64,000 nt of DNA from Pegea sp. RAD2-039 (Eukaryota > Chordata > Thaliacea > Salpida > Salpidae). Positions 6,401 to 44,319 of this stretch are shown one piece after another. Below the pieces are notes generated by a model. It did no database searches. It saw only the letters and a program-made list of their open reading frames with translations, and was not told where the DNA came from. A program made the position numbers and the translations under genes. Position 1 is the first letter of the stretch, and the number at the start of each line of letters is the position of its first letter. The stretch covers positions 1 through 64,000 of the forward strand of contig JAQGEQ010000245.1 of NCBI GenBank assembly GCA_034620365.1, read 5' to 3'.

Positions 6401-6449
6401 TTCGCATTATGCTATTGTGTGTCAGTGAAACATAAAAAATCTTTTATTT

Positions 6450-10314: not shown

Positions 10315-10852
<538 letters not shown>

Positions 10853-16480: not shown

Positions 16481-16486
16481 GTAATG

Positions 16487-16567
16487 TTTCTTTTTTGATG
16501 GTTCTTTGTTGATGTTACTTTCGGTTGATAACAACTTTCGCTTCCGATAAATTTGTTTATTGTCCAT
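16487..16567 (-). pseudogene. C2H2 zinc-finger gene, 5' fragment (copy B)
   Basis: Only the first ~27 codons are present, starting at the ATG at 16567 ([20 protein letters not shown] and a few more). The fragment lacks the TGA of copy A. It runs into the 3' end of the long ORF of copy A at the duplication junction. No finger remains, so this is a remnant. Confidence 0.8.
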
Positions 16568-19500
16568 CAAATTTAGTTTTAATCTAATTAGATACATGCA
16601 TACAAATAAAGTATTTTTTAAAAAGCAAACAGTTTCTAATATTAATATATATTGGCTAAATATATGATTTTAATTTAATGAAAAAAAAATTAGGTTTTTT
16701 TAAAAATATAGTTTCTTAAAAGTCTTTTAACAAAATTAATAATATTGGAAAATTAAAAAAAAATATATTCTGTTTCTTTGTTCAAATCCTGCAAAATACA
16801 TTCAATAAAAAAAAAATTACTGAAGCTTCTTCAAGAACTTTCTACCAAATAACATTTCACAAAAAGTGTTTAACATTAACCTTTATTTCTAAAGTTTTTT
16901 GTTAAACATTTTTCGAAATTATTCACTTGAGCTGCTGACCTTTCTGTCCATCCTTTAATTTCTTTGCCTTTATATATTATATTTCGAGCATGATGATTTA
17001 TTTTTTTTTTGATTCGTAAATAAAAACTGAAAAATACAATTTTTAAATTACTAAACAATGTTCTTAAACAAGTTGATCAAAATTTAGCAACTAACGTTTT
17101 CTTGAATAAAAAAAAGTTATGTTTTAATAATACAATACCAACAAATTATTTTCTGGGCTAAAAACGTTGTTTTCTATTTAAAATTGATTATTTTAAAAAA
17201 AGTTTTTTAAAACCGAAACTTTGAAATGATTTTAGATATTTTTTGGTGGATTTAATTGTAGAAACCAAATTAGTCAACTATATTTTCCGAAAAAAAACAT
17301 CTATTCTTTTAATACTGATTGCAAAAGTACGCAAATAGCTCTATAAAACAAATATTATTAAAGAAAAATTAAGAAAATAGAAAGTTTGCGAAATCATAAG
17401 CAAATCTTGGTTATTATTTTATAGTTGAATAACACTGGAGAAAATGAATAAAATATCAGAATTATATTTTTCTTGCTACAGAGATTATTCAATCACTTTC
17501 ATGCACTTCAGATACTTCATTCATATTTTTACGACAGAAATTGTAAAGCAATTAGTAATTTTAAAGTTTTGAACTTTTGAACTTTTACACTTTTCACATC
17601 CATTACTAACTGATCAAAATTGATTAACAACTAAAATTACTGAAAAACATTTTTTTTTAAGTTTAATGTTTATAATTTACTCAAAACTATCTTTCAAGTC
17701 ATTTTATTACAATATTTGTGAATTTTTGATAAATTTATCAAATTTAAAGAAATTACGAAATTTATGAAATAAATCAGTTCTGATAAATTATATTAAGCAA
17801 AAAAATTTGATCATTTTATTATATGAAGGAAGTAAAAGTTTTTGCAAAATTAAGTAAATTATTTTGTTGCAAAGAATATTAAAAAATATATTTTATTAAC
17901 CAGGCTCAGTAAATTTAAGTTGCACGTGTTAAGTGTCATGTTGAGCGAAATCTTAATTTTTGTGGCAATTGGTTTAGTTGTTAATGTCTTTATTTATAAA
18001 ATTCCAGTTGTTGTTAACATGAATATTGAAAACAAAGCCTTAGTCTTCTGAGTAAAAATATTTTTAAATTAAAATACCAATACTAAGTTCAAGACTAAGA
18101 CCAAGTGTTTCAATAATGCATATTTTCATAATGAATATATTTAAGTGTTAAATATGCTTTAATATTCATCTTGATAAGATTGGGACCCTATAATTACACT
18201 TATGACGGATTTAATTGAAGTACTTTTAATGATGTAACATTATTCTTCTTATTAATTATATCAAGTTAACTATATTAATAAATATTTGAAATGTCATATT
18301 CAAGTGAAATATTAGCAAATATGTAATATATCTATTATTGAAAAAAAAATTTACATTTCACAATTCAAATGGATTAAATTTCTCCACTTTTGTGTAGAAG
18401 TTTGGTAACTAATAAAAAAAAAATTTATTAAAAAATTGTAACAACTAGAAAAATGTTATTTGAAAAATTAATTTGGCCGTTTTAACTGTTTCTGCTATGT
18501 GGCGCTAATTGGCATTTTATTGAGTCAATAACTAGGATTATCTTTTTAGTTGGTAGATTAATATGATCAAACTGGTTGTTAATATAAATATTGACTAATA
18601 AAGCAACTGGCACCAGTTAAATCATGTTTAATCATAACATTACTAAACCTCTGTTATTGAATAAAATAACATTTTAAGATATAATTTGTAGATACCAAAT
18701 TTTTGAAACTTTATTAAAAATAGTAGCCCATGATACTTAATTATCTGACACCAATTTACAAACTAATTCAATACTTCATTATCCTTAAAAAATACAAATT
18801 AACAAAATATTCATTGTAAATTGGTCTACAAGCTCATGTATATGAAGATAGAACAATAGAATAAGTTTAGAATTTGACAATTAAATCCTATGTAACACAG
18901 GTTTTGTTTGTTAATCAAATAATTTTGCTGAATTCTACCGTTAGTTTTTATCTTATTAGCAACTTCCACTTATTTTGTATTATTAGTGAAGTTTTCATTA
19001 AACGAATAAACTTTTGTATCTAAGGTGTTTAATAATTGCTCAACTGTTATAAAAATTAAAGAAGTAAGTAAAAGTTTACTACAAAAAGCTTTAAAAGATT
19101 TACTACTTTAATGTAAATGGAGAAAAATGTTATTTAAAACAAAGTTTAAAAAAAGTAATTTTTGAAATGTATTCTTAAATTTAAAATACACTTTTAAGTC
19201 AACATATCATTTAGAAAAAACTGAAAAATCATTGTAGAAACCGAAAACAAGGAATAATTTTAATAAATCCATCAATTTTTACAACCTTTGATAGTTTATT
19301 TTTACTGTACATGAAACTAATCAACTGTTTTACATAAAAGTAGTATCAAATTTTGGAGATATTTACAAAAACTTTTATGTTGGATTTTACAGTTGGATAT
19401 TCTTTTTTCATAATTTCTATTTAGCAACTGTTTTTTCTTATGTCTTGCATATTTTTCAATAATTTGTGTTAAACTAAAAAACAATATTGTAATATCTTTA

Positions 19501-19859
19501 GGTATTATTTTAAAACTAAGCTTTGTAATTACTTTGCAAGCTCTAATAAATAAATACCTTTTAGCAATAATTTAAAAATATTTTCAAGTGTTTGTAAAAG
19601 TTTTAATTTTTTATTTACTATTCTTTATTTACATATCAACAACGTTGTTGTCTTTTTTTTGTTACTGTAAATTTTAAGTCTATGAAGTAATAAAAGAGAA
19701 GTGCAAAGATATATGTTGAGAAGTTCTCATCTTCGCTATCATTTAAGATCTAACTAATTTGAATTATTCATGCTTTTATGTAAGGCTAAGCAAATTAGTA
19801 TAAGATATTATCTTAATATACTTCTGCATAAGTTAAAGATGTACAAATCATTTTTACAG
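16568..19859. other. Spacer upstream of the intact long ORF (B)
   Basis: Matches 10853-14156 in copy A with scattered substitutions and many single-base indels. That indel pattern contrasts with the following ORF, which differs from copy C by only one in-frame indel. No separate gene is supported apart from the short frame at 16876-17055. Confidence 0.6.
16876..17055 (-). CDS. Short frame conserved in copies A and B (copy B)
   Basis: Counterpart of 11186-11365, 59 codons and a stop. It differs at about a quarter of positions but keeps HHAR, YKGKE, TERSA and the NFEK/NFRNK pattern. No ATG is present. It may be an exon of the minus-strand transcription unit upstream of the zinc-finger start, or chance. 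Confidence 0.22.
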   Translation of the reverse strand, partial: FSNLKIVFFSFYLRIKKKINHHARNIIYKGKEIKGWTERSAAQVNNFEKCLTKNFRNKG

Positions 19860-19876
19860 ACTGATAATCCATAATA
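19860..19876 (+). promoter_or_regulatory. Probable 5' UTR after splice acceptor (copy B)
   Basis: TTTTTACAG ends at 19859, 17 bases before the ATG. The acceptor and the ACTGATAATCCATAA leader are nearly identical in all three copies. Confidence 0.5.
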
Positions 19877-22216
19877 ATGTCTAGTTTAAAAGCTGACAAG
19901 TTTTCTGAGTTTGTAAAACAGTACAAGATAAAAGAAAACAAGTTCTACATTTTGCAAGGTAGAATGTTTCAATTTATTTTTACAAATGAAGTTTTCAAAA
20001 ATAATTTAGAACTTCAACATAAATACAATCGTGATAATTTTGATACCAATAAACTTGATTGCATGTCTCATCTTTTTCTGAGAAACAAAATTGCTTTACC
20101 TGGATGCGTTTATTGGATATCTCAAGATGATAATTTTGTTAAGGTATATAAGCTACAAGATTTTGATGTTAGTAATTTTTCATATGAAATGGTTTTAGTA
20201 AAACTTTTTTTTTACTTTGGAGTGGGATATTCTGTAAAGAAAAATAAATCAGTGAAAGAACATTTTGTTGGTTTAGAACTTTTGAAACATTGTTTGATAA
20301 TTGCTGAAGGTTTGGAATCATCTAACATTTTGCAGAACTTTAAGACAATTGCTTTTTCATGTTTCTTGTCACAAATTCTAAACGTGTTTATAACAACTTC
20401 AAAAACAAACTGTAAACAAACTAATAAGCGATTTGTTGAGTTGATAAAATACTTTTCTTTCTCTTCATCCCCGACAAATACGTCACATACTCAATCTGGG
20501 TTAAATAAATTGCAAACATATCTGTCATTTTTAGATGGGTATGCTCACAAAACTATCTGTTTTCATCAGTGCCAAATTTGTTACTCTTCAGCTGATGAGA
20601 AAACAGCAACATTTATTAGAGAGCTTGTAATGTATTGTGACTTGCTTTTATTTGTCCATTTATCAAATGCAAATCAAATATATGTTCTTAGACAAACTTT
20701 TTGCTCAAAAGAGATTCACAAATTATGTAAATCTGAGTTTACCAAGCATGTAATTGAGACTGAGAAATCATTGATTACTACGCTTTCGTCAGCTTTAGTT
20801 TGTTTTGATTGGTTAATACAGTTGGTTTGTTCCTACAAATTAATTCCAGGCTTTAAATCTAATGAATTGAAGAAGATTGCAAACGGTTTATATGTAAACA
20901 AAACTATCTATAAGAGCTTACACTTCAGTCATTATGAGTTCAAACTGGGAGAAAGTCTTGAAGAAAAAGAAAAACAAGTTTATCTTAGCAATGAATTTAT
21001 AATTTCTCTTACGAGTGATGTTTTTTTGTTTTCAGTATTAAACTCAACGATTTTAAAATGCTTTAGAGATCAAAACATATACCGGTCTATTTCTAAAAGT
21101 CTGAGGATTATATTGTTGTTAGTTACTCTAGCCTTTGCTCTAAAGAAACAACTGAATATTTGTTTAGTAAAATTGTTGAATAATAATGCTAGCAAAAAGT
21201 CGCAAGATTGCTTTTTAAATAGAAAACATACAAAGGAGTACTCAAGTGGTGAAAAATGTCAACTTTTAGATAAAATGTTTTATACAATTATTGATAAAAC
21301 AAAGAAATATGACAACTTGTTTGTAAAAGACGTGATGCTTAAAACGTTTTTTGATTGTTTATTGCATCAATTGCTTTTATCACCATCTAAAAATACACTA
21401 GAGTTATTTGCTTTTGCAGAATTTCCGTTTGAATACAGAAATTTCCAAATTGAAAAACCAGAATCATCACAAAACTATTTAGACTTTATTTTATACTTTG
21501 ATAAAGAAAAACATCGTGTAATTGGTCTTATCAGTTCTATCTTACAGGATGATTTCTTAAGATTGCCTGTAGATTTTATTACTACAGAATCAAAAAAGAT
21601 AAATGATTTGAAAAAGGATATAATCCTGAAATTTCACCAGCATTCACGAATTCAGAAGGAAGAAGTTGAGCCAATTTTTAAATCAATATTTTTACTAAAA
21701 CGAAAAGTTTGGTTGTTTACTTTGCTAGCTCCTAAGTTTATCGATTATACAAAAGAACATAAGAGAGCTGTAATACAAAAGTTAAAATTTCTTCTTACCG
21801 GAACGTGTTTCCATTATTATATTGGATGGAATAATTTAAGTATGATAAATTTTGAAGGATGGCTGATAATGATAAGAAGTTTGATGATAAATAATTCAAA
21901 TTCTGCTAAATTAATAGTAGAAATATTACAAAACTTCTTCATTTTTTTGAAGATTTTGCCTACCTTGTTGGATGATAGAATTACTCCATCTAATGAGGAA
22001 TGTTTTTTTAAACTAATAACTTGCATTCAAGTAACTGTTGCAAAAGTATGCAGAAATTTTAATCAAAGCTATGCTCTCAATTTGAAGACCAATTTGTTGA
22101 ATGAATACTTATCAATCTTAGAAAATATCTCTAAAATAAATAGAAAAAAAATTACCTTTAAAAATATTTTAAGTAAACTCAACGAACTACCTACAATGCC
22201 ATTTTTATTTGTCTAA
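19877..22216 (+). CDS. Unknown single-exon protein, 779 aa (copy B, intact)
   Basis: I do not recognise this family. The frame is open for 779 codons in a region of over 70% A+T, which is very unlikely by chance. The ATG is the first in frame after the conserved splice acceptor and is shared by all three copies. The product looks mostly helical and is rich in Leu, Phe, Lys and Ser. There is no signal peptide. One hydrophobic stretch (residues ~409-421, RIILLLVTLAFAL) could be a membrane or buried helix. A CxxC lies at residues 232-235 (HQCQICYS). Compared with copy C it has one extra residue (KLIPGFKS against KFVGFKS) and two clusters of differences, at ~322-410 and ~627-695. The zinc-finger partner of this copy is only a fragment. 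A polyadenylation-type AATAAA lies at 22431-22436. Confidence 0.85.
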   Translation: MSSLKADKFSEFVKQYKIKENKFYILQGRMFQFIFTNEVFKNNLELQHKYNRDNFDTNKLDCMSHLFLRNKIALPGCVYWISQDDNFVKVYKLQDFDVSNFSYEMVLVKLFFYFGVGYSVKKNKSVKEHFVGLELLKHCLIIAEGLESSNILQNFKTIAFSCFLSQILNVFITTSKTNCKQTNKRFVELIKYFSFSSSPTNTSHTQSGLNKLQTYLSFLDGYAHKTICFHQCQICYSSADEKTATFIRELVMYCDLLLFVHLSNANQIYVLRQTFCSKEIHKLCKSEFTKHVIETEKSLITTLSSALVCFDWLIQLVCSYKLIPGFKSNELKKIANGLYVNKTIYKSLHFSHYEFKLGESLEEKEKQVYLSNEFIISLTSDVFLFSVLNSTILKCFRDQNIYRSISKSLRIILLLVTLAFALKKQLNICLVKLLNNNASKKSQDCFLNRKHTKEYSSGEKCQLLDKMFYTIIDKTKKYDNLFVKDVMLKTFFDCLLHQLLLSPSKNTLELFAFAEFPFEYRNFQIEKPESSQNYLDFILYFDKEKHRVIGLISSILQDDFLRLPVDFITTESKKINDLKKDIILKFHQHSRIQKEEVEPIFKSIFLLKRKVWLFTLLAPKFIDYTKEHKRAVIQKLKFLLTGTCFHYYIGWNNLSMINFEGWLIMIRSLMINNSNSAKLIVEILQNFFIFLKILPTLLDDRITPSNEECFFKLITCIQVTVAKVCRNFNQSYALNLKTNLLNEYLSILENISKINRKKITFKNILSKLNELPTMPFLFV

Positions 22217-23758
22217 AATTGATTTGTGTCTCTTTTAATGTTTATCAAAAGTAAAATTTGTTGTCTGTTTTTTATAAAGTGTTTTAGTAGTATATGCTTA
22301 TAGCGTAACATAAGTATAACATGTATGAATGTCATACTTCTTTTCCAACGTTTGTTTGTTTTGTGTTTCAGTTTTAGTTTTCTCTAAGTGACCCTCCATT
22401 TGCCACTTAATATAACAAAATGTACTGAAAAATAAAAGAAAATAATATTGCTTACTTTAAGTAGTTATAAAACTTTGTTGAAATTATCAGGTAAAAGGTT
22501 AAAATTATGTTTTAATGAAAATCAAAACGATAATAGAAATGTGTTGAGTACAACATTTTAAAATCAATGTATAAATGTTTGGAACATTATAGAGGCATAG
22601 TTAAAATATAAACCATCAATGAAAATAAGATAACATATAGTAAAAGAAAACATAGTAAAAGTTAAATGATGTTTTTATTCATCGTCAGTTACTTAACAAT
22701 TCCAGAGGTCGTCATAATAGTCTTAGGATTATTTTAAATAATAATTAACTAAATAAATAAATAAAATTTCTAATAGTAAATGTTTAGAATGACGATGACA
22801 GCAGTTAGTTTGGAGATATTAAATATATTGATAGCTGATTGGGTATTGAGGAATCAATTAAGAATTTATAATTCTATTTGTAAGTTTTTTCCGAAAATGT
22901 GATTTTTAATTTTTAAGTCTTTTGAATAAGTATAAAATAAATCAACCAGTAGCTGGTATGCTTGTGAAATGTTTGATCCGAAAATAAAAAAATAATAAGA
23001 ACAAACTTTTGATCGGAAATGATATAAAAACGAATAAGCTACATATAATGCTAGAATGAGAATTGTTCAATAGAATTTCGAAGAAAAAACATAATTGCAA
23101 ATCTGTATAGAAGAACTAAGTGAGTGTTTATGCTTTCAAATGACAAATCTTCAACATCTAAATTTTTATGTAATTTGTAAAAAAATCTCATATTTATTAA
23201 AATAGAACTTTTTCTAGATTTGTTTTTTAAAATAATTATTTCAACTTTGAATTTAGAGTTTTCATCAAAATTTTGACTTTTTTGTTACAGAGTTATTCAT
23301 AACAATGGTTGATTTTCATTCATTATTGCTGTTTTAAAATTAATTGAAGTCATTCCTAATATTAAGTTAGAGAATACAAGTTTTGTCCTCCTGTGCTAAG
23401 TCCAATTTTGCGTTTACCGTTAGACTTGACAATTTATCTTTAATTATATAACTTTTAAAAGTATATGACTTTCAACGTAAGTATTTTAAACAAGTAAGCT
23501 TTGTTTGAATTACTAAGACTTTAATTCTTTTTAATGAATTAATTTTTAATTAGTTAGGTTAATAATTAAGTAAAAATGTTGGTTAAAAAATGTTAGTAGA
23601 AAACTTTAAATTTGATATTACATCCATCTTAAACAATTTCATCTTAATATTTGTGGAAGTACATGATTTTAGTTTGTTTTTCTTCGTTAAGCAAATGAAT
23701 ATTGTTTTATTTAAAATTAGGCTTATTAACAACCAATATCAAAACAAAAAAAACTTAA
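22217..23758. other. 3' flank of long ORF, copy B
   Basis: A/T-rich sequence matched closely by 34152-35693. It holds AATAAA at 22431, a good acceptor-like TTTGTGTTTCAG ending at 22371, and the GTCGTCATAATAGTCTTAGG block at 22709. I see no gene. A 61-codon frame at 23590 is shared with copy C but its composition looks non-coding. Confidence 0.5.
22431..22436 (+). terminator. Candidate poly(A) signal of copy B long gene
   Basis: AATAAA in the context ACTGAAAAATAAAAG, about 215 bases after the stop codon. It is conserved at 34366-34371 in copy C. Confidence 0.45.
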
Positions 23759-23869
23759 AGTACCAAAGAAGATAATGGTGAAAAAATTATAAATTTTATT
23801 ATCGATGAAAAAAGTCATTTTGAATTCTCAAACCTTTTAGAGAATGATATTATTGAAAAGTTGAGATAA
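23759..23869 (+). pseudogene. Short coding-like remnant
   Basis: A 36-codon frame between two stops reads STKEDNGEKIINFIIDEKSH, then FEFSNLLENDIIEKLR. Its composition is protein-like, unlike its surroundings. In copy C (from about 35696) the same frame acquires a stop after EKSHF. Together with the frame at 23958 it looks like the remains of a gene that lay downstream of the long ORF. I do not recognise it. Confidence 0.3.
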
Positions 23870-23957
23870 GGAGTTCTTCAATCAGGAAAACTATAAAAAA
23901 TGAATAAATAGCTACAAATATCAATATTGTTTCTTATGATCTAGTAAAAGAACATAA

Positions 23958-24113
23958 CTATTATTTTGTATTTTGGAACCAAGTGAATATTTAGAGTTTC
24001 AAATGACAAGCTTTTTTAAATCAGATTTAAATCATTTAAAGAAATCTGAAAACAGCCAACCAGTAGATGATGCAATTAAGAAAGATTTTTTTAAATTGAA
24101 ATTTCAAACCTAA
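23958..24113 (+). pseudogene. Coding-like remnant, 51 codons (copy B)
   Basis: The open frame includes LEPSEYLEFQMTSFFKSDLN followed by HLKKSENSQPVDDAIKKDFF and ends at TAA 24111-24113. An internal ATG at 24003 could start a 36-residue peptide. Copy C keeps the frame (35894-36058) even though a poly-T run has gained three bases there, an in-frame change. The substitutions between copies mostly change the residue. It may be a terminal exon. No family recognised. Confidence 0.35.
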
Positions 24114-24521
24114 TTTTGAAACAAGTTAAGTCTTTACAAGCAAACAAGTTTTCTTGTAGTTGTTTTAGTATTCTGTACGTCACTATAATGTTCAAACCTT
24201 AAATTTCATTGAAATTGTTTTTCAAGAGCTACTTAATCTCAAATTGATTTAGTATCTGTTTTAATTCAATTAAAGTTATTTCGTTTTTATTTTATATTTA
24301 ATGAATTTTCAGATAACAATTGTATTTTACATACAAAACTCAACATAGCTAATAAAAAAATATTGATAAATAAACTAATAAACTTTGTTTAGACAACCAT
24401 TCAGAAGTAAATACAAAAATATTGCATGATAAGCTCAAGCTTTTTTGATATCAACAGATTGGAGTAGAATATATGAATGAATTGTAAGAAAACCAATAAA
24501 ACAATCATTGAAAAAGTCATA

Positions 24522-24590
24522 TTGTAACCAGGATTCGAACGTAGGTTAGCATGATCACAACACCATGTAACTGTCATTAAATGATTACAA
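24522..24590 (-). pseudogene. tRNA-His(GTG)-like sequence
   Basis: Read on the minus strand, a 7-bp acceptor stem forms (TTGTAAT with GTTACAA, one G-U). The anticodon loop is TTGTGAT with anticodon GTG. The B-box region ACGTTCGAATCCTGG matches tRNA-His T-arms. Anticodon and T stems have mismatches, so it is probably a degraded gene or a tRNA-derived relic. It lies 6 bases downstream of the initiator-Met-like sequence on the same strand. Confidence 0.45.
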
Positions 24591-24596
24591 TGTACA

Positions 24597-24668
24597 TAGC
24601 ATACTATGGTTTCGATCCATCGACTTCTGGGTTATGAGCCCAGCACGCTTCTGCTGCGCCACTCTGCT
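24597..24668 (-). tRNA. Initiator tRNA-Met(CAT)-like gene, copy B, probably decayed
   Basis: 72 bases match eukaryotic initiator tRNA-Met. The 5' end is AGCAGAGTGGCGCAGCAGAA, the anticodon arm CTGGG-CTCATAA-CCCAG is perfect, and the T loop is the initiator-type ATCGAAA. The discriminator base is A. The 3' acceptor strand has changed (GTATGCT instead of CTCTGCT), giving two acceptor mismatches plus one in the T stem. Both internal promoter boxes are preserved. Probably a pseudogene, or a gene under relaxed selection. Confidence 0.6.
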
Positions 24669-24845
24669 GAAAGCAAAATTTATACTAGCTGATTATAAAA
24701 CTAGAACTATTTATAAAACTACTTTACTTAAAATTATGTGGCTTCGGAACGAGAAACTTGAGTCGGCGACAAAATCAACAGTCACATTTTCGGCGTCAAT
24801 TTAATTATTGTTTTGGGGTTTTTTGAAAACTATTTCAGTTCATTG

Positions 24846-25094
24846 TTATGTAACTTTATAATTCTTACTATGCCAATAAACTATATTTATCAATATTAGA
24901 GTTATCAATGAAATTATTTTGAAGTTATTATGATTAACTATGATGAAATTTATCACTGCTTTAATATTTTCAAAAATAATGACTTCATCACAATATTTAA
25001 GAGGAGTTTTCATGGCCTCGATACAAATGACGTCACTCAAGCCTTTTATTACAGTTGTTATTATTAAAAATGTTATTAAGTATAATATCCTCAT
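24846..25094 (-). CDS. Possible small secreted or membrane protein, 82 aa
   Basis: From an ATG at 25094 the frame begins MRILYLITFLIITTVIKG, a hydrophobic N-terminus like a signal peptide. A segment with two cysteines and acidic residues (SDVICIEAMKTPLKYCDEV) follows, then a second hydrophobic stretch near the end. I see no homologous copy elsewhere in the window. A/T-rich DNA easily yields hydrophobic frames, so this is weak. Confidence 0.2.
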   Translation of the reverse strand: MRILYLITFLIITTVIKGLSDVICIEAMKTPLKYCDEVIIFENIKAVINFIIVNHNNFKIISLITLILINIVYWHSKNYKVT

Positions 25095-25454
25095 TAGTTT
25101 TTGTCTTCTAATAGAATGATGATGATAGACTAATCTGATAAATAGCATTATCAATAATAGCAAATATCAGATAAGCATAGGTTGTTTCAACTTTATCACG
25201 AACATTTTATACTAGAAACCCCTTTTCAAGTACGTGCATAAAAATTCATCGGTAGAATTTTAAAATAAGGAATGAAAATTAGGATCATACCAATTCTTTC
25301 ATCTTTTAAAACAATTTCTACTTTGTCAATTAATTAATAGTCAGGCTAAAGTTGACATCAACCAATTACTTGCAGTTTGACCCAATTTTAATACAATTTC
25401 TTTTATTAAACTTTAAATTAAAAATTTTGTAAAATATAATTGCATTTTTCTATC

Positions 25455-26150
25455 TAGTTTTTCAGTCAAAAGATGTCGCTAGAGCTGTTTGATTCTCATT
25501 TTTGATAAAATTATAAAAGTTGTATTCTTAGATCTGTTAGACAAATAGTGTTATTCAATGACTTTGACCTTACAAAACATTCTATTACTTTTTTCAATAA
25601 CACTTGTATTGAGATTTGTAATTAAAAATTTATAGTCGGTTACAAAAAATTGACTCAACTTAGTGATTTCAAACTTACAAATCATACCTTAAAAAATATC
25701 GAAAAATAGTTTTAATGAAAATTAGAAAAATCTCAAATAAGTTAATCAAAATTAGCAACAACAATTTGTTTTTATCTTTTTTTTCGACACACAAAATTTT
25801 TCTTCTTATTATAAATAGTTCAAATTTATGAAATGAATAATAATTTTCGAAAAATATATTTTTCTCCGGACAAATACTAGATGAAGGAACGTTTTTATAA
25901 TGAAAAATATTCCTTAATTTCAGAAACCATAAAAATTTGTTGTAAATTTTTGACATCGACTATATGTCGATAGATAAATCCAAAATTAAGAATTAATTCG
26001 AACAAACTTTCAAATTTAAAACTGCTTGAATGTTTTGATCAAAAAATTAGATTTCGTGAATTATAATTTGTCATCAAAGATTTGTCGATCTTATAGTTTT
26101 TGAATTTTAAAGAAATTGTTATTTGTCATTGTATTCAACAGGATGGTGAT
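25455..26150 (+). repeat. Dispersed palindromic module, copy 6 (full length)
   Basis: AGTCAAAAGATGTCGCTAG is near 25466, ATCTGTTAGACAAATAGTG near 25532, CTCCGGACAAATACTAGATG near 25864, and the hairpin ATCGAC-TATAT-GTCGAT at 25955-25971. It ends with a tail running to CAACAGGATGGTGATTT near 26137. About 690 bp from first to last motif. Confidence 0.75.
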
Positions 26151-26439
26151 TTGAATTAATAAAAGTTACAAGAATTACTACCTAAAAATATTTGTTCTAT
26201 TTGTTTTTTAGAGAAGATCAATAGAATTAGTGGGTAGTCAAAAAGTCAATAAACAAATGAACTGTAAGTAGTGAGTTTAATAAAACTTTATTTCTAGTTT
26301 ATATTACTTTTTCTATTTTTATATCATTTCAAATTATCCAGCAATTCATGAAAAATGAAATTGAAAATATTTGGTAAAATCTGACAAACTCAATTGAATT
26401 TTAAGCATAATTTTGAAATTTGAATTTAGTTAAAACTTA

Positions 26440-26680
26440 TTTCATTAATCAATAACACTTCAATTTAGAGTGACGTAATCGAACAACCACAATTTTTTCA
26501 TAATTCAAAAACTATAATATTGACAAATATTTGATGTCAAATTGATCATCACGTCAATTAATTATTTCAATTGAAACATTCAAATAGTTATAGTTTTTAA
26601 GTTTGCTGATTTTGTTAGTTGTATTTGTCGGATTATTCTATCGACAAATGGTCGATTTTAAAAATTAAGTCTCTTTTAAA
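26440..26680 (-). repeat. Inverted partial module next to copy 6
   Basis: The tail and the hairpin (TATCGACAAATGGTCGAT near 26638) occur here in reverse, so 25950-26110 and 26500-26660 face each other with a 0.4-kb loop. Confidence 0.6.
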
Positions 26681-27277
26681 TTCTTTCATAATAAAGATTA
26701 TTTTTTTTATGTGACTTTCAATGTTAAATAGGTTCATAAGTAATTTTTAGTTATCTTTGACAAGTCGTTGATTGATGCTTATTTTAAGTAATTCTTCGAT
26801 CCTGTAATTTAACTCACTAATATTTTTAAATTCTTTTTTTAAATTGCAAGATAGTTTGAATGGATTTAAAAATATATACAAATAAATCTATAATTCAAGC
26901 ATATAATTCAACATTTATTTTCTGGTGCTAATTCCTTTATTAAAATGTAATATCATTTCTAATTAATGTTTAGTGTGTTCTAAGCTGACAAACCTTTGGT
27001 TATGCTAGCTAAGAAAACTTTCTAATAGTAAAACTAATATAAACTTTTAATTCACTAACTTCATAGTAAATAAAGTATTATATCATTAGAAGCTGTTTTT
27101 TCAGGAGAAAAAATTACTTGAAATATTACCAAACTAGTAAAGTATCAATTTATGCCTTTGGTATGCATTTGGAAAAGGTTTGCTAATTCATAATCTGCTT
27201 TTTTTGTATTTAAATTTAGGTAGATTATTGAATAAAATCGTTCAAAAACTTTTCACAAAATCCAAACTGTAGATGAC

Positions 27278-27448
27278 ATGCCTGAGAAAGTTGAATCTCA
27301 ATGTACAGCTTCGAAACTCTTTAAAAAGAACTCTACGGTGACACTTGTTCAAGAATTGAATAAATTTTTTTTTGATGATCAACATTTGTTAAACAAAGTT
27401 TTATTAAAAGTCATAACTATATCGAATAGTCAAATTATTGAAAATTAA
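27278..27448 (+). CDS. Coding-like island, 56 aa, unknown
   Basis: The frame is open from a TAA at 27233 and contains an ATG at 27278. The product starts MPEKVESQCTASKLFKKNST, continues VTLVQELNKFFFDDQHLLNK, and ends at TAA 27446-27448. Codon composition is distinctly protein-like compared with the flanks. AAACTGTAG ending at 27272 could be a splice acceptor. It lies 0.2 kb before copy C of the gene cassette and has no paralogue before copy A. Family unknown; could be a terminal exon. Confidence 0.35.
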   Translation: MPEKVESQCTASKLFKKNSTVTLVQELNKFFFDDQHLLNKVLLKVITISNSQIIEN

Positions 27449-27654
27449 TTATTAATATTTTGTGGTAAAAATGTTTAAACTGATAAGCGTTTTGTGAAAG
27501 TTGAAATGAATATCTTTCTGTCTGCTTGTAAGAATTAACATTTTTTAAAAACATTTTGTTAAAAAATTCGGAATAAGATTAAAAAACTAACTTACTACAT
27601 GGTTTAAAAGAAAACCGAAATTATTCAAGTGAAAATTTAATACTAACATATGAA

Positions 27655-27920
27655 GATATATTAATTAGCACAACGTATTTAATAGATGAAATATATCATA
27701 CTTTCTTGTTCTAAACGGTGGTTTCTTTTCTGAAATAAAATGAAGAGAAGAAAAACTACTTTCAAAAAAAGAGAAAAACTTTAACAGCTTTTTATTTTGC
27801 ATTTCACTTTGTGTTGCTCGATTAGTTTCTTTCGTCTCATTTTCTTTTACTTTTTTTTAATATCATCACTTATAGCACATCCTATATCACCGTTTTCGGC
27901 CGAACTTTTACAATGAAAAT
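27655..27920 (-). pseudogene. Frameshifted counterpart of the 87-aa small ORF
   Basis: Same sequence as 7729-7992 with few substitutions, but one base is missing in the poly-A run of the KKK codons and the ATG region is gone. A continuous frame is lost. Confidence 0.45.
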
Positions 27921-29180
27921 GTTGAAATTTATAAGGAAAAAATATTATTTGAATATAAAAGTTATTTTACCTTTTTCTGTAACCATCCTATTTATCCTTT
28001 ATCCAACCTAACTTGATAGACTACAATGTTTTTTTCTTAATTTAGATATTATAACAGTAAAAATTAATTCAAGCAAAATACAGCTGTTATCAAAACTTCT
28101 TTAGAATAATTTATATATTTAAACCTAATTTACAGTAAGAGAATTTAAGAGTAAATCGGTTTATTATATTTATACTAAGCTATAGATTTTAATAAAATAT
28201 TTGTTTATGCTTTAATCGAAAACTTTATTTAAAAACATGAAGTAAACTAACTAGCAGTTGGAAATTAACTTCATGGAAATTAATTATTTTGATTCTGAGT
28301 GATCTTAATTTTAAACACAAACTTTAACTACTTATTGTAATAAAAAAAAACTTTACGCTTGTGCTAAAAGTTGATGAGTTTAGAAATAATGAATAAATTT
28401 AACTGAGATATGAAAAAAAAAAGAATTTATCATTGTAAAATTATATTATAAAAATCAAAACTTTTTTTAAAATAATGATATTTTTCCAAATAAGTTGACC
28501 TACAAAATATTATTCCATTATCAACTTTTCAGTATCTAGTTGCTAAAATTATATTATTTGGAGGTTTTTGATGAATTATTTAAATAATTTTTAGTTACAA
28601 CTGCAAATAATAGAAATATTGTCTAACACCAAGTGGTGTCATTTGTAAAGACATTTCAATTTCTTTAAATTTTCATCTTTTCTTTTAAACGTTTTTAAAG
28701 TACTTTTTTTGAAAGCACTATTTTGAAATTACTTTGTCGTGCTGGTGGATAAATATTTGATGAGTTAAAAAAAAGATTATTAAATTGTATTTTTAAATTG
28801 TTATTAATAAAGCTGTAGGAATTCCTATTTGTAGATATTCTACTATGCATCTAAAATATTCTGAATCACCAAACTGGAAAGTTGAAACTCATTCTAACAT
28901 TTTAACATTTTCATTATTTTAATCAGCTAATTTTCTACAGTTTTTATATGTTTTAGTTCATAGATTTACAAATATTAATTTCTTTTTTCGATTTGTAAAC
29001 TTTGTAAAAATCTTTTTTTACTTAGCTGAATCAACATTAGGTTGTTATGAATCTCTGAATGTTTTCAAGTTTAAAATTGCTTTAATAAATTTTGATGCAG
29101 AAATTTACCTGAAATAATTGTACCATGAAACTAATATTCCATAATATAATAAAATAATAAAATACCGAAAATCAGTTGTT

Positions 29181-29816
29181 TTATTTACAGTATGGTTTAA
29201 AAAAATTATTTTGTTTCTGATTATTATGAGCCCTTTGATGGTACGAAAGACTTGCTTTATGACGAAATTGTTTTCCACAAGCAAGACATTCATATGGTTT
29301 CTCGCCAGTATGAGTTCTTTCATGTTTTATAAGACTTGATTTTATAGCAAACTTTCTTTCACAAACAACACATTCATAAGGTTTCTCACCAGTATGTGTT
29401 CTTTCATGTTTTTTAAGACTTGATTTTATAGCAAACTTTCTTCCACAAACAACACATTCATATGGTTTCTCACCAGTATGAGTTCTTTCATAATTGACAA
29501 GTTGAGATTTGAAATTAAATTGTCTACAACAAATCAAACATTCATATTTTTTTTTGCAATTTGAAACTTTTTTAAGCAAACATTTTTTTTCTTCAATTAC
29601 TACTTCTGCTGATTTATTACTTTTGGATGACGAATTACTCTTCTTTGTTATATTTTCTCTTTCATTGTTACAAGTAATTTCATCAACGATAATTTCGTTC
29701 CAACCATCCAATGCATTAAATAATTTATATGAATGTTTCTTTTTTGATGTTACATTGTCGATGTTACTTTCAGTTGAAAACAACTTTCGCTTCCGATAAA
29801 TTTTTTTGTTGTCCAT
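29181..29816 (-). CDS. C2H2 zinc-finger protein, 211 aa (copy C, intact)
   Basis: A probable sequence-specific DNA-binding protein acting in the nucleus. The start is the ATG at 29816 (MDNKKIYRKRKLF), with a basic N-terminus. A Ser/Lys-rich linker (KKSNSSSKSNKSA, residues 58-70) precedes four fingers at residues 91-113, 119-141, 147-169 and 175-197, joined by TGEKPYE linkers. Finger 1 has Tyr in place of its first zinc-binding His (VNYERTH), whereas copy A keeps VNHERTH, so finger 1 may not fold. Fingers 2 and 3 have identical helix contact positions (Ile, Ser, Ser, Lys), pointing to a recent internal finger duplication. Finger 4 has His, Ala, Ser, Tyr. The gene is head-to-head with the long ORF, 2.0 kb between starts, which suggests a shared regulatory region. 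Confidence 0.85.
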   Translation of the reverse strand: MDNKKIYRKRKLFSTESNIDNVTSKKKHSYKLFNALDGWNEIIVDEITCNNERENITKKSNSSSKSNKSAEVVIEEKKCLLKKVSNCKKKYECLICCRQFNFKSQLVNYERTHTGEKPYECVVCGRKFAIKSSLKKHERTHTGEKPYECVVCERKFAIKSSLIKHERTHTGEKPYECLACGKQFRHKASLSYHQRAHNNQKQNNFFKPYCK

Positions 29817-31797
29817 CAAACTTTACAAAATACAAAATTTATGAAATAATTCAGTTCTGATAATTTTTATTAAGCAAAAAAAAGTTTATCATTTTATGAT
29901 ATGAAGGAAGTAAAAGTTTTTTCAAAATTTAAGCAAATTATTTTGTTGCCAAGAATATTAAAAAATATATTTGAATAACCTGGTTAAGTAAATTCAACTA
30001 TCCTTATACTAGCATACGTTGAGTGTCAATGTTTCAATTTTGTAATTGTTGTTTGGTAGGACATTTCTATTTTACAGTTTAATTAACAATTAATTTAGGT
30101 TTTCTTTCTGTTTTTGCTGACTAGCTCTATAATTGTTTGAAATAAGCTATTTTTAAAAAGTTTAAAACTGAATTCATTTAAAACACATTTCATTAATTAC
30201 AAATGTTAAGTTAGTTTTTGCTATTACAAACAAATGAAGATTTCAAAGAGCTTACAAAAACAAAATTAAATTCTTAAATGAAATTTGATTAGTTACAAAA
30301 AGTTTTAAGACAACTTATAGTTATTATATTTTAATTCCTGATAAAAATAAGTTTAATCGAGCAAAATCGTAATTTTTGTGGTAATTGAATAAGTTGTTAA
30401 TGTCTTTATTTTTAAAATTCCAGTTGATATTAACATGAATATTGAAAACAAAGCCTTAGTCTTCTGAGTAAAAATAGTTTTAAATTAAAATACCAATACT
30501 AAGTTCAAGACTAAGACCAATTTTTTCAATAATGCATGTTTTCATTAATTAAGATATAATTTGTAGATACCAAATTTCTAAAACTTTATTAAAATAGTAG
30601 CCAAAGATATATACTTTTTTATAATTTAATTATTAAAAAATTTGTTATTTTTATCTGACACCAATTTACATAAATAATTCAATACTTCATTATCCTTAAC
30701 AAATACAAATCAACAAATTATTCATTGTTATTTAATCTACAAGCTCATGTATATGAAAAAAGAACAATAAAATAAGTTTAGATTTTAACAAACAAATCCT
30801 GTTTGACACAGATTTTGTTTTTTAATAAAATAATTTTGCTGAATTTTAGTGTTTGTTTTTATCTTATCAGCAGCTTTCTCTTATTTTGGGCTAATATTAA
30901 AGTTTTTATTAAATAAATAAACTTTTGTATCTAATGTGTTTATTAATTGCTCAACTGCTATAAAAATTGAAGAAATAAGTAAAAGTTCACTACGAAAAAG
31001 CTTTAAATATATACTACTTTAATGTAAATAGAGAAAAATGTTATTTTAAAACCCAGTTTAGAAACAGTAAGTTTTAAAATGTATTCTTAAATTAAAAATA
31101 CACTTTTGAGTCAACATATCATTTAGAAAAAACTGAAAAATCATTGTAGAAGCCGATAACAAGGAATAATTTTAATAAATCTATCAATTTTTACAACCTT
31201 TGATAGTTTATTTTTACTGTACATGAAACTAATCAACTTTTTTATATAAAAGTACTATAAAAATTTGGAGATATTTATAAACACTTTTATGTTGGATTTT
31301 ACAGTAGGATTTTATTTTTTTTTGTAGTTTCTATTTAGCAACTGTTTGTTCTCATATTTTGTATATTTTTTCTACAATTTGTGGTAAACTAAAAAACAAT
31401 ATTATAATAAGTTTACATATTAGTTTAAAACTAAACTTTGAAAATTTTTTACAAGTTTTTATAAATAAATACCTTTTAGCAATAACTTAAAATTATTTTC
31501 AAGTGTTTGTAGAAGTTTTAATGTTTTATTTACTATTATTTATTTACATATCAACAACGTTGTTGTCCTTTATGTTGTTATTGTTAATTTTAAGTCTATG
31601 AAGTAATAAAAGAGAAGTGCATAGATGTATTTTGAAAAGTTCTCCCATTATCTATTATTTAAGATTTAACTAATTTGAATTATTCGTGCTTTGGGTAAAG
31701 CTAAACAAATCAGTATAAGATACTGATTTTTATATTTTCCTTATAGTTTCTTTATATACTTCTGCACATGTTAAAGATGTACAAATCATTTTTACAG
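29817..31797. other. Divergent intergenic region of copy C
   Basis: About 2 kb between the zinc-finger start and the long ORF leader. From 30370 on it matches copies A and B. 29870-30360 is largely unlike them. It probably contains both promoters; no core promoter can be identified with confidence. Confidence 0.5.
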
Positions 31798-31814
31798 ACT
31801 GATAATCCATAAAA
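31798..31814 (+). promoter_or_regulatory. Probable 5' UTR after splice acceptor (copy C)
   Basis: TTTTTACAG ends at 31797, 17 bases before the ATG, as in the other two copies. Confidence 0.5.
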
Positions 31815-34151
31815 ATGTCTAGTTTAAAAGCTGATAAGTTTTTCGAGTTTGTAAAACAGTACAAGATAAAAGAAAACAAGTTCTACATTTTGCAAGGTAG
31901 AATGTTTCAATTTATTTTTACAAATGAAGTTTTCAAAAATAATTTAGAACTTCAACATAAATACAATCGTGATAATTTTGATACCGATAAACTTGATTGC
32001 ATGTCTCATCTTTTTCTGAGAAACAAAATTGCTTTACCTGGATGCGTTTATTGGATATCTCAAGATGATAATTTTGCTAAGGTATATAAGTTACAAGATT
32101 TTGATGTTAGTAATTTTTCATATGAAATGGTTTTAGTAAAACTTTTTTTTTACTTTGGAGTGGGATATTCTTTAAAGAAAAATAAATCAGTGGAAGAACA
32201 TTTTGTTGGTTTAGAACTTTTGAAACATTGTTTGATAGTTGCTGAAGGTTTGGAATCATCTAACATTTTGCAGAGCTTTAAGACAATTGCTTTTTCATGT
32301 TTCTTGTCGCAAATTCTAAACGTGTTTATAACAACTTCAAAAACAAACTTTAAACAAACTAATAAGAGATTTGCTGAGTTGATAAAATACTTTTCTTTCT
32401 CTTCATCCCCGACAAATACGTCACACTCTCAATATGGGTTAAATGAATTGCAAACATATCTGTCATTTTTAGATGGGTATGCTCACAAAACTATCTGTTT
32501 TCATGAGTGCCAAATTTGTTACTCTTCAGCTTATGAGAAAGCAGTAACATTTATTAGAGAGATTGTAATGTATTGTGACTTGCTTTTATTTGTCCAATTA
32601 TCAAAAGCAAATCAAATATATGTTCTTAGACAAACTTTTTGCTCAAAAGAGATTCACAAATTATGTAAAACTGAGTTTACCAAGCATGTAATTGAGACTG
32701 AGAAATCTTTGATTACTACGCTTTCGTCAGCTTTAGTTTGTTTTGATTGGTTAATACAGTTAGTTTGTTCTTACAAATTTGTAGGCTTTAAATCTAATGA
32801 ATTGAAGAAGATTGCAAATGGTTTATACGTAAACAGAAGTATCTATAAGAGCTTACACTTCAGTCATTATGCTTACAAACTGGGAGAAAGTCTTGAAGGA
32901 AAACAAAAACAAGTTTTTCTTAGCAATGAACGTTTAATTTCTCTTACAAATAACATTTTCCTTTTTTCAGTATTAAACTCAACGATTTTAAAATGCTTGA
33001 GAGATAAAAACACATACCGGCCTATTTCTATATGTCTGAGGATTATATTGTTGTTAGTTACTTTAGCTTTTGCTCTAAAGAAACAACTGAATATTTGTTT
33101 AGTAAAATTGCAGATAAATAATGCTAGGAAAAAGTCGCAAGATTGCTTTTCAAATAGAAAACATACAAAGGAGTACTCAAGTGGTGAAGAATATCAACTT
33201 TTAGGTAAAATGTTTTATATAATTCTTGATAAAACAAAGAAATATGACAACTTGTTTGTAAAAGACGTGATGCTTAAAACGTTTTTTGATTGTTTATTGC
33301 ATCAATTGCTTTTATCACCATCTAAAAATACACTAGAGTTTTTTGCTTTTGTAGAATTTCCGTTTGAATACACAAATTTTCAAATTGAAAAGCCAGAATC
33401 ATCACAAAACTATTTAGACTTTTTTTTATACTTTGATAAAGAAAAACATCGTGTAATTGGTCTTATAAGTGCTATCTTACAGGATGATTTCTTAAGATTG
33501 CCTTTAGATTTTATTACTACAGAATCAAAAAAGATAAATGATTTGAAAAAGGATATAACACTGAAATTTCAACAGCAATCAAGCAATCATAAAGATGAGA
33601 TTAAATCAATTTTTGATTCAATATTTTTACTAAAACGAAAAGTTTGGCTGTTTACTTTGCTAGTTCCTAAGTTTATCGATTATACAAAAGAACCTGAAAG
33701 AGCTGTTATACTAATGCAAGAATTTTTTCTTACTGGAACAAATTTCCATTATTGTATTGGATGGAATAATTTAAGTATAATAAATTTTGAAGGATGGCTG
33801 ACAATGATAAGAAGTTTGATGAGAAACATTTCTAATTCTGCTGACTTAATAGTAAAAATTTTACAAACTTTCTTCTTTTTTTTAAAGAGTTTGCCTAGCT
33901 TGTTGGATGATAGAAATACTCCATCTAATGAAAAATGTTTTTTTAAATTAATTACCTGCATTCAAGTAACTGTTGCAAAAGTATGCAGAAATTTTAATGA
34001 AAGCTGTTTTCTCAATTTGAAGACCAATTTGTTTAATGAATACTTATCAATCTTAGGAAATATCTCTAAAATAAATAGAAACAAAATTACCTTTAAAAAT
34101 ATTTTAAGTAAACTCCACGATCTACCTACAACGCCATTTTTATTTTTCTAA
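31815..34151 (+). CDS. Unknown single-exon protein, 778 aa (copy C, intact)
   Basis: Paralogue of the protein at 19877. It has the same start and an almost identical C-terminus (LSKLHDLPTTPFLFF). The family is not recognised and there is no clear signal peptide. It has the same single hydrophobic stretch near residue 410 and a CxxC at ~232-235 (HECQICYS). Only one in-frame 3-base indel separates it from copy B over 2.3 kb. In the first ~250 codons I count about 18 amino-acid-changing differences against about 5 silent ones. A C-specific cluster lies at ~583-604 (LKFQQQSSNHKDEIKSIFDS). Its partner zinc-finger gene upstream is intact, making this the only copy with both genes open. AATAAA at 34366 may be the poly(A) signal. 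Confidence 0.85.
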   Translation: MSSLKADKFFEFVKQYKIKENKFYILQGRMFQFIFTNEVFKNNLELQHKYNRDNFDTDKLDCMSHLFLRNKIALPGCVYWISQDDNFAKVYKLQDFDVSNFSYEMVLVKLFFYFGVGYSLKKNKSVEEHFVGLELLKHCLIVAEGLESSNILQSFKTIAFSCFLSQILNVFITTSKTNFKQTNKRFAELIKYFSFSSSPTNTSHSQYGLNELQTYLSFLDGYAHKTICFHECQICYSSAYEKAVTFIREIVMYCDLLLFVQLSKANQIYVLRQTFCSKEIHKLCKTEFTKHVIETEKSLITTLSSALVCFDWLIQLVCSYKFVGFKSNELKKIANGLYVNRSIYKSLHFSHYAYKLGESLEGKQKQVFLSNERLISLTNNIFLFSVLNSTILKCLRDKNTYRPISICLRIILLLVTLAFALKKQLNICLVKLQINNARKKSQDCFSNRKHTKEYSSGEEYQLLGKMFYIILDKTKKYDNLFVKDVMLKTFFDCLLHQLLLSPSKNTLEFFAFVEFPFEYTNFQIEKPESSQNYLDFFLYFDKEKHRVIGLISAILQDDFLRLPLDFITTESKKINDLKKDITLKFQQQSSNHKDEIKSIFDSIFLLKRKVWLFTLLVPKFIDYTKEPERAVILMQEFFLTGTNFHYCIGWNNLSIINFEGWLTMIRSLMRNISNSADLIVKILQTFFFFLKSLPSLLDDRNTPSNEKCFFKLITCIQVTVAKVCRNFNESCFLNLKTNLFNEYLSILGNISKINRNKITFKNILSKLHDLPTTPFLFF

Positions 34152-35893
34152 AATTAATCTGTGTCTCTTTTAATGTTTATCATTATAAAACTTTATTTCC
34201 TACTTTTTGTAAAGTGTTTTATTAGTATATGCTTATAGCGTAACATAAGTATAACATGTATGAATGTAATACTTCTTTTCCAACGTTTGATTGATTTGTG
34301 TTTCAGTTTTAGTTTTCTGTAAGTGACCTGCCATTTGCCACATAATAAAACAAAATGTACTGAAAAATAAAAGAAAATAATATTGCTTACTTTAAGTAGT
34401 TATAAAACTTTGTTGAAATGATCAGGTAAAAGGTTAAAATTATGTTTTAATGAAAATCAAAACGATAATAGAAACGTGTTGAGTAGAACATTTTAAAATC
34501 AATGTATAAATGTCTGGAACATTATAGAGGCATAGTTAAATTATAAACCATCAATGAAAATAAGATAATATATAGTAAAAGAAAACATAGTAAAAGTTAA
34601 ATGATGTTTTTATTCATCGTCAGTTACTTAACATTTCCAGTGGTCGTCATAATAGTCTTAGGATTGTTTTAAATAAAAATTAACTAAATAAATAAATAAA
34701 ATTTCTAATAGTAAATGTTTAGAATGACGATGACAGCTGTTAGTTTGGAGATATTAGATATATTAATAGCTGATTGCGTATTTAGAAATCAATTAAGAAT
34801 TTATAATTCTATTTGTAAGTTTTTCCGAAAAATATGATTTTTAATTTTTAAGTCTTGTGAATAAGTATAAAATAAATCAACCAGTAGCTGGTGTGCTTGT
34901 GAAATGTTTGATCTGAAAATAAAAAAATAATAAGAACAAACTTTTGATCGGAAATGATATAAAAAAGAATAAGCTAGACATAATGCTAGAATGAGAATTG
35001 TTCAATAGAATTTCGAAGAAAAAACATAATTGCAAATCTGTATAGAAGAACTAAGTGAGTGTTTATGCTTTCAAATGACAAATCTTCAACATCTAAATTT
35101 TATGTAATTTATAAACAATCTCATATTTATTAAAATAGAACTTTTTCTAGATTTGTTTTGTAAAATAACTATTTCAACTTTGAATTTAGAGTTTTCATCA
35201 AAATTTTGGCTTTTTTGTTACAGAGCTATTAATAATAATGGTTGATTTTCATTCATTATTGTTGTTGTTTTAAAATTACTGGAAGTCATTCCTAATATTA
35301 AGTTAAAGAATACAAGTTTTGTCTTCCTGTGCTATATCCAACTTTGTGTTTACCGTTAGACTTGTCAATTTATCTTTAATTATATAACTTTTAAAAGTAT
35401 AAAACTTTCAACGTAAGTACTTTAAACAAGTAAGCTTTGTTTGAATTACTAAGACTTTAATTCTTTTTAATGAATTAATTTTTAATTAATTAGGTTAATA
35501 AGTAACTAAAAATGTTAGTTAAAAAATGTTAGTAGAAAACTTTAAATTTGATATTACATCCATCTTAAACAATTTCATTTTAATTTTTGTGGAAGTACAT
35601 GATTTTAGTTTGTTTTTCTTCGTTAATCAAATGAATATTGTTTTATTTAAAATTAGGTTTATTAACTACCAATTTCAAAACACAAAACGCTTAAAGTACC
35701 AAAGAAGATAATGGTGAAAAAATTATAAATTTTATTATCGATGAAAAAAGTCATTTTTAATTCTCAAACCTTTTAGTAGAATGATGTTATTGTAAAGTTG
35801 ATATAAGGAATTCTTCAATCAGGAAAACTAAAAAAATGAATAAATAGCTACAAATATGAATATAGTTTCTTATGATCTAGTAAAAGCACATAA
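34152..35893. other. 3' flank of long ORF, copy C
   Basis: Collinear with 22217-23957. It contains AATAAA at 34366-34371 and the degraded counterpart of the STKEDNG frame at about 35696-35760, where a stop follows EKSHF. No other gene seen. Confidence 0.5.
34366..34371 (+). terminator. Candidate poly(A) signal of copy C long gene
   Basis: AATAAA in the context ACTGAAAAATAAAAG, the same position and context as in copy B. Confidence 0.45.
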
Positions 35894-36058
35894 CTATTAT
35901 TTTGTATTTTGGAACCAAGTGAATGTTTAGGGTTTCAAATGACAAGCTTTTATAAATCAGATTTAAATCATTTAAAGAAATTTGAAATCAGCCAACCAGT
36001 AGATGATGCAATTAAGAAAGATTTTTTTTTTAAATTGAACTTTCAAACCTATTTTTAG
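35894..36058 (+). pseudogene. Coding-like remnant, 54 codons (copy C)
   Basis: Counterpart of 23958-24113. It reads LEPSECLGFQMTSFYKSDLN, then HLKKFEISQPVDDAIKKDFF, and ends at TAG 36056-36058. A poly-T run is three bases longer than in B, so the frame survives. Unknown family; possibly an exon. Confidence 0.35.
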
Positions 36059-36584
36059 AACAAGTAACGTGCTTACAAGCAAACAAGTTTTTTTGTAGTT
36101 TTTTTAGTATTCTGTACGTCACAATAATGTTCAAACCTTAAATTTCATAGACTTTGTTTTTCAAGAGCTACTTAATCTCAAGTTGATTGATTATCTGTTT
36201 TAATTCAATTAAAGTTATTTAGTTTTTATTTTATATTTAATGAATTTTCAGATAGCAATTGTATTTTACATAGAAAACTCAACATAGCTAATAAAAAAAT
36301 ATTGATAAATAAATTAATAAACTTTGATTTAAATTTGAATCAATTAAAATAGAAATAAGTAAAGATAATTTATAACAGTTGCTTAAATCACTAATCACTT
36401 TTTTGTAAGTTTTTGTATTCATTTATTTTAAAACTGAAATTTATTTTATGCTTAGACAACCATTCAGAAGTAAATACAAAAATATTGTAAGATAAGCTCA
36501 AACTTTTTGGATATAAACAGATTGGAGTAGAGTATATGATTGAATTGTAAGAAAACGAATAAATCAAACATTAAAAATATAATG

Positions 36585-36653
36585 ATGTAGCCAGGATTCT
36601 AATCTAATCCGCTATGATAATAACACTAGGTCAATGTCATTAAATGATTACAG
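36585..36653 (-). pseudogene. Degraded tRNA-His-like sequence (copy C)
   Basis: Same length and position as 24522-24590, but the T-arm motif is broken (ATTAGAATCC in place of GTTCGAATCC) and the anticodon loop is altered. A relic. Confidence 0.4.
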
Positions 36654-36659
36654 TGCATA

Positions 36660-36731
36660 GAGCAGTGGATGGTTTCGATCCATCGACTTCTAGGTTATGA
36701 GCCCAGCACGCTTCCGCTGCGCCACTCTGCT
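36660..36731 (-). tRNA. Initiator tRNA-Met(CAT)-like gene, copy C
   Basis: 72 bases. The 5' half (AGCAGAGTGGCGCAGCGGAA) agrees with the eukaryotic initiator tRNA-Met as I know it. The T stem GATGG/CCATC is fully paired around ATCGAAA. The acceptor has one mismatch (CACTGCT against AGCAGAG). The anticodon stem has one G-U (CTGGG/CCTAG). The discriminator would be C rather than A. It is better preserved than the copy at 24597, but whether it is functional is uncertain. Confidence 0.6.
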
Positions 36732-36839
36732 GAAAGCAAAACAAATATTAGCTGATTATAAAGCTAAAAATTCCTAAAACAATTAACTAAAATTTTGTGG
36801 CTACGGAACTAGAAACTTGATTCAGCGACAATTTTAAGA

Positions 36840-39300: not shown

Positions 39301-39474
39301 GATAAAAATACCATAACTTCTTACTGTTATTGTTAGATGACATGCACAGCAAGAAGGTTGAAGCAGAAATGACGAACAATTTCTAAGAAAATAAATTTTT
39401 GTGTTGTCAATTTAAGCAAAAAGATCTAACTGCAACTTTTTCATTTCTAAAATTTTACAATCGAAAATTTTTGT

Positions 39475-41520: not shown

Positions 41521-41529
41521 AAAACTCAT

Positions 41530-43760: not shown

Positions 43761-43774
43761 TTAACAAAAATTAG

Positions 43775-44292: not shown

Positions 44293-44319
44293 ATTCATAC
44301 TGTTATATGCTTGGAGGAC

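Follow-up and report, generated by a model that had tools for sequence, protein, structure and literature searches.

Two long open reading frames in an AT-rich stretch of DNA have kept the same frame, although most of the codons in which they differ encode different residues, which raises the question whether selection acts at this locus on the frame, on the residues, on both or on neither. A sequence-only reading had described them as members of a gene family whose protein "changes freely" while its frame is kept, under relaxed or diversifying selection. We take the window, i.e., the whole stretch of 64,000 nucleotides that was analysed, to be animal nuclear DNA, judging from its gene families (C2H2 zinc finger, reverse transcriptase); its mean GC content of 24% and a tRNA-Met gene also underlie this assignment. 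A C2H2 zinc-finger gene and a non-LTR-like reverse transcriptase mark an animal genome, and a prokaryotic origin of the window was ruled out by their presence. A non-standard genetic code was ruled out as well, since both intact copies of the gene are open under the standard code. The reverse transcriptase remnant, presumably of the non-LTR type, matches Pfam RVT_1 at E 0.0022 with 18.2 bits, where the curated cut-off is 29.6.

Three gene copies in duplicated units

The features on which the analysis rests are the following (identities from self-alignment of the window).

2-823, plus strand: terminal part of a reverse transcriptase ORF (Pfam RVT_1), open to the window start
10471-10851, minus strand: disrupted zinc-finger copy of unit A, open part 126 codons
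10778-16474, plus strand: duplicated segment, unit A, 93.5% identity to 16494-22180
14174-16480, plus strand: copy A of the orphan gene, disrupted, with one in-frame TAG and the 3' end cut
16475-16493, no strand assigned: A/B tandem junction, where the cut 3' end of copy A meets zinc-finger-ORF-like 5' sequence
16494-24390, plus strand: duplicated segment, unit B, of which 18674-24390 aligns with 30549-36329 at 91.8%
19851-19876, plus strand: leader of copy B, with an acceptor-like TTTTTACAG at 19851-19859 and then 17 bases to the ATG
19877-22216, plus strand: copy B, intact single-frame CDS of 779 codons
22431-22436, plus strand: AATAAA, 214 bases past the stop of copy B
24597-24668, minus strand: weaker tRNA copy of unit B, 36.2 bits, no ARAGORN call
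27916-36831, plus strand: duplicated segment, unit C, carrying the tRNA-Met and the orphan gene as well as the intact zinc-finger ORF
29181-29819, minus strand: C2H2 zinc-finger ORF of 212 aa with TGEKPY linkers, in unit C
31815-34151, plus strand: copy C, intact single-frame CDS of 778 codons
36660-36731, minus strand: tRNA-Met (CAT) of unit C, 49.4 bits

The full openness reported for the copies at 19877 and 31815 holds, with exactly the codon numbers given for them, and their proteins are 87% identical. Copy A begins at 14174, outside the span of 19877-34151 to which the sequence-only reading referred. It carries a TAG at 15167-15169 (codon 332) and no frameshifts, and the final 11 codons of copy B have no counterpart in it, the match ending at the A/B duplication junction. 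The acceptor-like TTTTTACAG precedes the ATG in all three copies. The 17 bases that follow it in copy B contain an in-frame TGA and TAA and are identical in copy C, while copy A retains the TGA; these stops make the ATG the likely start codon and imply a CDS contained entirely in a single exon. Any exon upstream of TTTTTACAG would, from the sequence, be non-coding or a trans-spliced leader. In copy C an AATAAA likewise lies 214 bases past the stop, in addition to others. The codon composition of the orphan gene is that of usual genes in that G is more frequent at position 1 (0.19) than at position 2 (0.10-0.11).

The segmental duplications that hold the copies are each ~6-9 kb long. Further alignments extend them: 24386-24772 aligns with 36449-36831 at 84%, 9044-10597 with 27916-29463 at 91%, and 16483-16574 matches 29732-29823, the 5' part of the zinc-finger ORF, at 90%. 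From these self-alignments the ancestral unit probably carried the zinc finger (minus), the orphan gene (plus) and the tRNA (minus). The A/B duplication event cut off the 3' end of copy A and fused the remainder to zinc-finger-like sequence. Only unit C retains an intact zinc-finger gene; in unit A the gene is disrupted, and unit B has no more of it than the 5' fragment at 16483-16574. It has thus been lost in two of the three units, and the adjacent orphan gene is open in two of the three.

Elsewhere the window holds dense, mutually similar direct and inverted repeats (at 3068-6715, 36830-43150, 46159-54834 and 56172-63482; ~67-91% identity), which probably represent a small number of decayed element families, present in several copies. 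The stop-masked frames that were scanned, which take in parts of these repeats, were those of 36830-46831 (plus, three frames), 22217-31806 (plus, three frames), 2-6723 (minus, three frames) and 824-2000 (plus, one frame); in none of them did a Pfam family reach E <= 0.01.

Selection on the reading frame

Copies B and C differ at 147 of 2337 aligned coding bases and by a single indel of 3 bases, in frame, at 20841. Their flanks carry nine indels in 1201 bases upstream (six of them single-base) and six in 2171 bases downstream (four single-base), i.e., 15 in 3372 bases, from which 10.4 would be expected in the coding part. The other two pairs behave in the same manner, with one coding indel (3 bases) in 2301 bases against 21 in 3359 flanking bases for A-B, and none in 2301 against nine in 1201 for A-C. 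The deficit is significant in each comparison, whether evaluated by Poisson (P 0.0004 for B-C, 9e-6 for A-B, 3e-8 for A-C) or by a conditional binomial test (0.003, 0.0002 and 7e-5), although the three pairs share sequences and these P values are therefore not independent. The contrast between one in-frame 3-base indel and many single-base indels in the flanks, on which the sequence-only reading was built, is hence real and beyond chance.

Nonsense changes tell the same story. None occurs between B and C, where 11.4 would be expected (P 1e-5), and one each occurs in A-B (9.3 expected) and A-C (9.7 expected). When 147 substitutions were placed neutrally on copy C, none of 2000 runs ended without a stop, the mean being 9.9. 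Since gene conversion could mimic frame retention in stretches of low divergence, the last third of the B-C alignment was tested alone. Its divergence of 8-12% (in 300-base windows) is close to the 11.5% of the upstream flank, and it still contains no indel where 6.25 are expected (P 0.002; conditional binomial 0.009) and no stop where 5.7 are expected (P 0.003). Gene conversion is, therefore, not the sole cause of the frame signal. The reading frame is clearly under selection in the intact copies, which makes a protein product likely, as had been argued before from frame retention.

Residue change and probable gene conversion

Over the whole gene the silent and replacement codon differences are 27:77 for A-B, 30:81 for A-C and 32:98 for B-C. 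For the first ~250 codons of B and C about 18 replacement and about 5 silent differences had been counted by eye, and our recount of the first 250 gave 17 and 5. A neutral substitution spectrum was derived from alignments of flanking sequence, four in number, with 568 differences over 8240 columns. It is not purely non-coding, as one of the four (9044-10597 against 27916-29463) takes in a stretch of the zinc-finger ORF. This spectrum predicts 3.0-3.4 replacement changes per silent change in the orphan gene. The ratio of 17:5 is near this neutral expectation (~3.3:1) and thus gives no sign of diversification; omega for this part is 0.81 by maximum likelihood (ML) and 0.85 when calibrated on the flanks, neither different from 1, with only 22 changed codons.

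For the whole gene the ML omega (GY94, F3x4) lies below 1 in all three pairs, at 0.632 (A-B), 0.563 (A-C) and 0.602 (B-C), with likelihood-ratio P values of 0.044, 0.008 and 0.015. Calibration on the flanks yields 0.74, 0.69 and 0.75 (P 0.13, 0.06 and 0.12), no single pair being significant, and a pooled value of ~0.73 (P 0.053, from half the summed pairwise counts). Relative to the flank average, the rate of replacement changes in the three pairs is 0.72-0.88 and that of silent changes 0.96-1.16. In the neutral simulation with 147 substitutions, however, the replacement:silent ratio was as low as that observed, or lower, in 23% of the 2000 runs, so that amino-acid constraint is not firmly shown. 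The constraint on residues, if present, is weak, amounting to weak purifying selection at most. With whole-gene omega below 1, free change of the protein finds no support, and of the two regimes that had been proposed for it relaxed selection stands, in the form of weak purifying selection, whereas diversifying selection is not supported. Nor does the window hold what had been named as the mark of young pseudogenes, dN/dS near 1 with many disrupted paralogues, one of its three copies being disrupted.

The distribution of the differences along the gene is uneven. Upstream, the pattern predicted by the order of the duplications, with A and B alike and C different, is seen at 112 of 161 variable sites. 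In the CDS it is seen at only 73 of 193 variable sites, while the other two pairings account for 67 and 49 and all three copies differ at 4. The site patterns in the CDS fall into 92 runs, against 125.4 (SD 6.4) in 5000 permutations, none of which was as low, and dS between B and C increases along the gene, being 0.037 for the first third and 0.165 for the last. The simplest account of this mosaic of shared sites is gene conversion or unequal exchange, the alternative being a patchy mutation rate. The protein differences between the copies are densest at residues 351-400 and 551-700. Codon changes unique to one copy (replacement:silent) number 27:12 in A, 43:12 in B and 44:18 in C; copy A is thus no more replacement-rich than B and C, which suggests that it began to decay recently or that conversion hides the decay. 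Most of the "free protein change" is an artefact of raw replacement counts, the AT-rich code and silent divergence lowered by conversion.

Affinity of the protein and weighing of the explanations

The earlier statement that no domain can be recognised in the protein was borne out by searches of Pfam, NCBIfam, PHROGs and PDB sequences, which name no family. Pfam gave only sub-threshold matches (E 9.3 for copy B, 1.6 for the 3' part of copy A) and PHROGs none. The one NCBIfam match, to the PylS C-terminal model, concerned copy B (E 0.001; 18.5 bits, the cut-off being 178) but not copy C, and was dismissed as chance. A PDB sequence search returned no rows for the single protein and three weak rows for a two-row profile (E 0.47-0.74), all three of one mitoribosomal protein. 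Pattern-seeded scans produced 28 and 432 stretches in GTDB contigs and 8 and 81 in IMG/VR, none confirmed as relatives, and tblastn against plasmids and phages found no relative either. A literature search turned up no paper evidently on this gene family; it also gave nothing relevant on TRANK1, which we considered a conceivable relative of the helical tail.

The full-length structure model is helix-rich, with a mean pLDDT of 32.8 and a pTM of 0.22, too poor for a fold search. The fold search that had been suggested for this protein was run on a model of the C-terminal part of copy C (residues 570-778; mean pLDDT 58.7, pTM 0.57), which shows eight helices and matched no family: none of 235 Foldseek matches in the PDB reached E <= 0.001 (the best, at E 0.25, being a Drechmeria virulence factor), and none of 269 did so in BFVD (best E 0.34). 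The first 11 VIA rows were designed helical proteins. The C-terminal alpha-solenoid of the FANCI/FANCD2 complex proteins may resemble the C-terminal model, at 9-10% identity, with a Foldseek E of 2.7 for 8a9k_A. However, unrelated rows lie within 1 Z of it (eIF3a PCI domain 9.0, Paip1 8.6), designed helical repeats rank higher, and its Z is under the ~13 required for helical repeats; no Pfam family of FANCI/FANCD2 type was found at E <= 10, in a search whose filters drop most matches above ~0.1. The protein is predicted, with low confidence, to be mostly helical. No hydrophobic 19-residue window above 1.6 begins before residue 299.

Taken together, we consider it about two-thirds probable that this is a fast-evolving, probably lineage-restricted one-exon animal gene of ~780 codons in a young tandem segmental cluster with zinc-finger and tRNA-Met genes, in which the frame of copies B and C is selected and copy A is a pseudogene. 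The restriction to a lineage is probable in the light of collections of prokaryote, virus, phage and plasmid sequences and of family libraries, not of animal genomes. The principal competitor, which we regard as unlikely, holds that all copies arose recently by duplication from a working gene or a retrocopy, are now neutral and as yet undecayed, and are kept open by conversion from a functional donor. It would explain why the replacement:silent ratios are near neutral, why copy A is already broken, why the sites form a conversion-like mosaic and why the CDS lies in one exon, but it fits poorly with B-C flanks that have ~10 times more indels per base than the coding part, with no stops where 11.4 are expected, with a frame signal that persists in the diverged last third and with an ML omega below 1 in every pair. 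That diversifying selection drives residue change, e.g., in an immune or self/non-self protein, seems the most improbable of the explanations. A protein divergence of 13% between B and C and the dense clusters of differences noted above might suggest it, and immune families often form clusters in which gene conversion occurs. For the whole gene and for each of its thirds it was nevertheless rejected, as all three pairs and all nine thirds of these pairs, the scale at which it was tested, have an ML omega below 1 (0.50-0.81 for the thirds). The high protein divergence of the last B-C third accompanies a high dS, and within B-C it is in this most diverged third that ML omega is lowest (0.52), the opposite of a diversifying hot spot. 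The protein also has no recognised domain and lacks a hydrophobic N-terminal stretch of the kind sought above.

It is only slightly less improbable that the ORF is part of a mobile element, or of one derived from a virus, that was copied with its surroundings. The window is repeat-rich with a reverse-transcriptase remnant, no host family was recognised, and the longest inverted pair listed (40 nt, 73% complementary; 25 of the 38 pairs of the first region are listed) joins 16460-16499, over the A/B junction, to 24695-24734, near the end of unit B. This pair is, however, weak and AT-rich, probably due to chance, and it has no counterpart among the 10 pairs listed for unit C. Moreover, a zinc-finger gene and a tRNA were copied along with the ORF in these units, which are arranged as a local series, and no relative was found in viral contigs, phages or plasmids, nor a BFVD fold match at E <= 0.001 for the C-terminal part. 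We give little more credence to a hitherto undescribed family of animal proteins whose fold is new and all-helical, and in which frame and length are selected while the sequence is nearly free, e.g., a scaffold or entropic protein for which helicity and charge count more than residue identity and whose variants are shuffled by conversion.

Under the preferred reading of a fast-evolving, tandemly duplicated animal gene, copies B and C would be transcribed, as the acceptor-like site before the start and the AATAAA after the stop suggest, and would yield a basic, mostly alpha-helical protein of ~91.5 kDa, perhaps an alpha-solenoid scaffold that binds other macromolecules. Duplication would have relaxed the constraint on the copies, conversion may have kept them alike, and copy A would be a recent pseudogene. 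This pattern is better matched by young tandem duplicates of the ordinary kind than by a novel regime of selection.

Comparable cases may exist in Hydra, whose genomes have a GC content of 24.7-25.4% and for which Table 3 of the published analysis presents expanded, uncharacterised orthogroups, i.e., taxonomically restricted, duplicated animal genes (PMC7642931). Like the genes of the present window (24% GC), these are uncharacterised duplicated proteins in an AT-rich animal genome. The likeness is one of description, however, no orthogroup of that source having been matched to the orphan gene by sequence.

The locus provides a clean, small example of how selection on the frame can be separated from selection on residues in AT-rich DNA, where raw replacement counts mislead when neutral change already gives more than three replacements per silent change, and where gene conversion locally lowers silent divergence. 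If the orphan protein is lineage-restricted, it would add an uncharacterised helical family; otherwise the locus would represent ordinary evolution of tandem duplicates.
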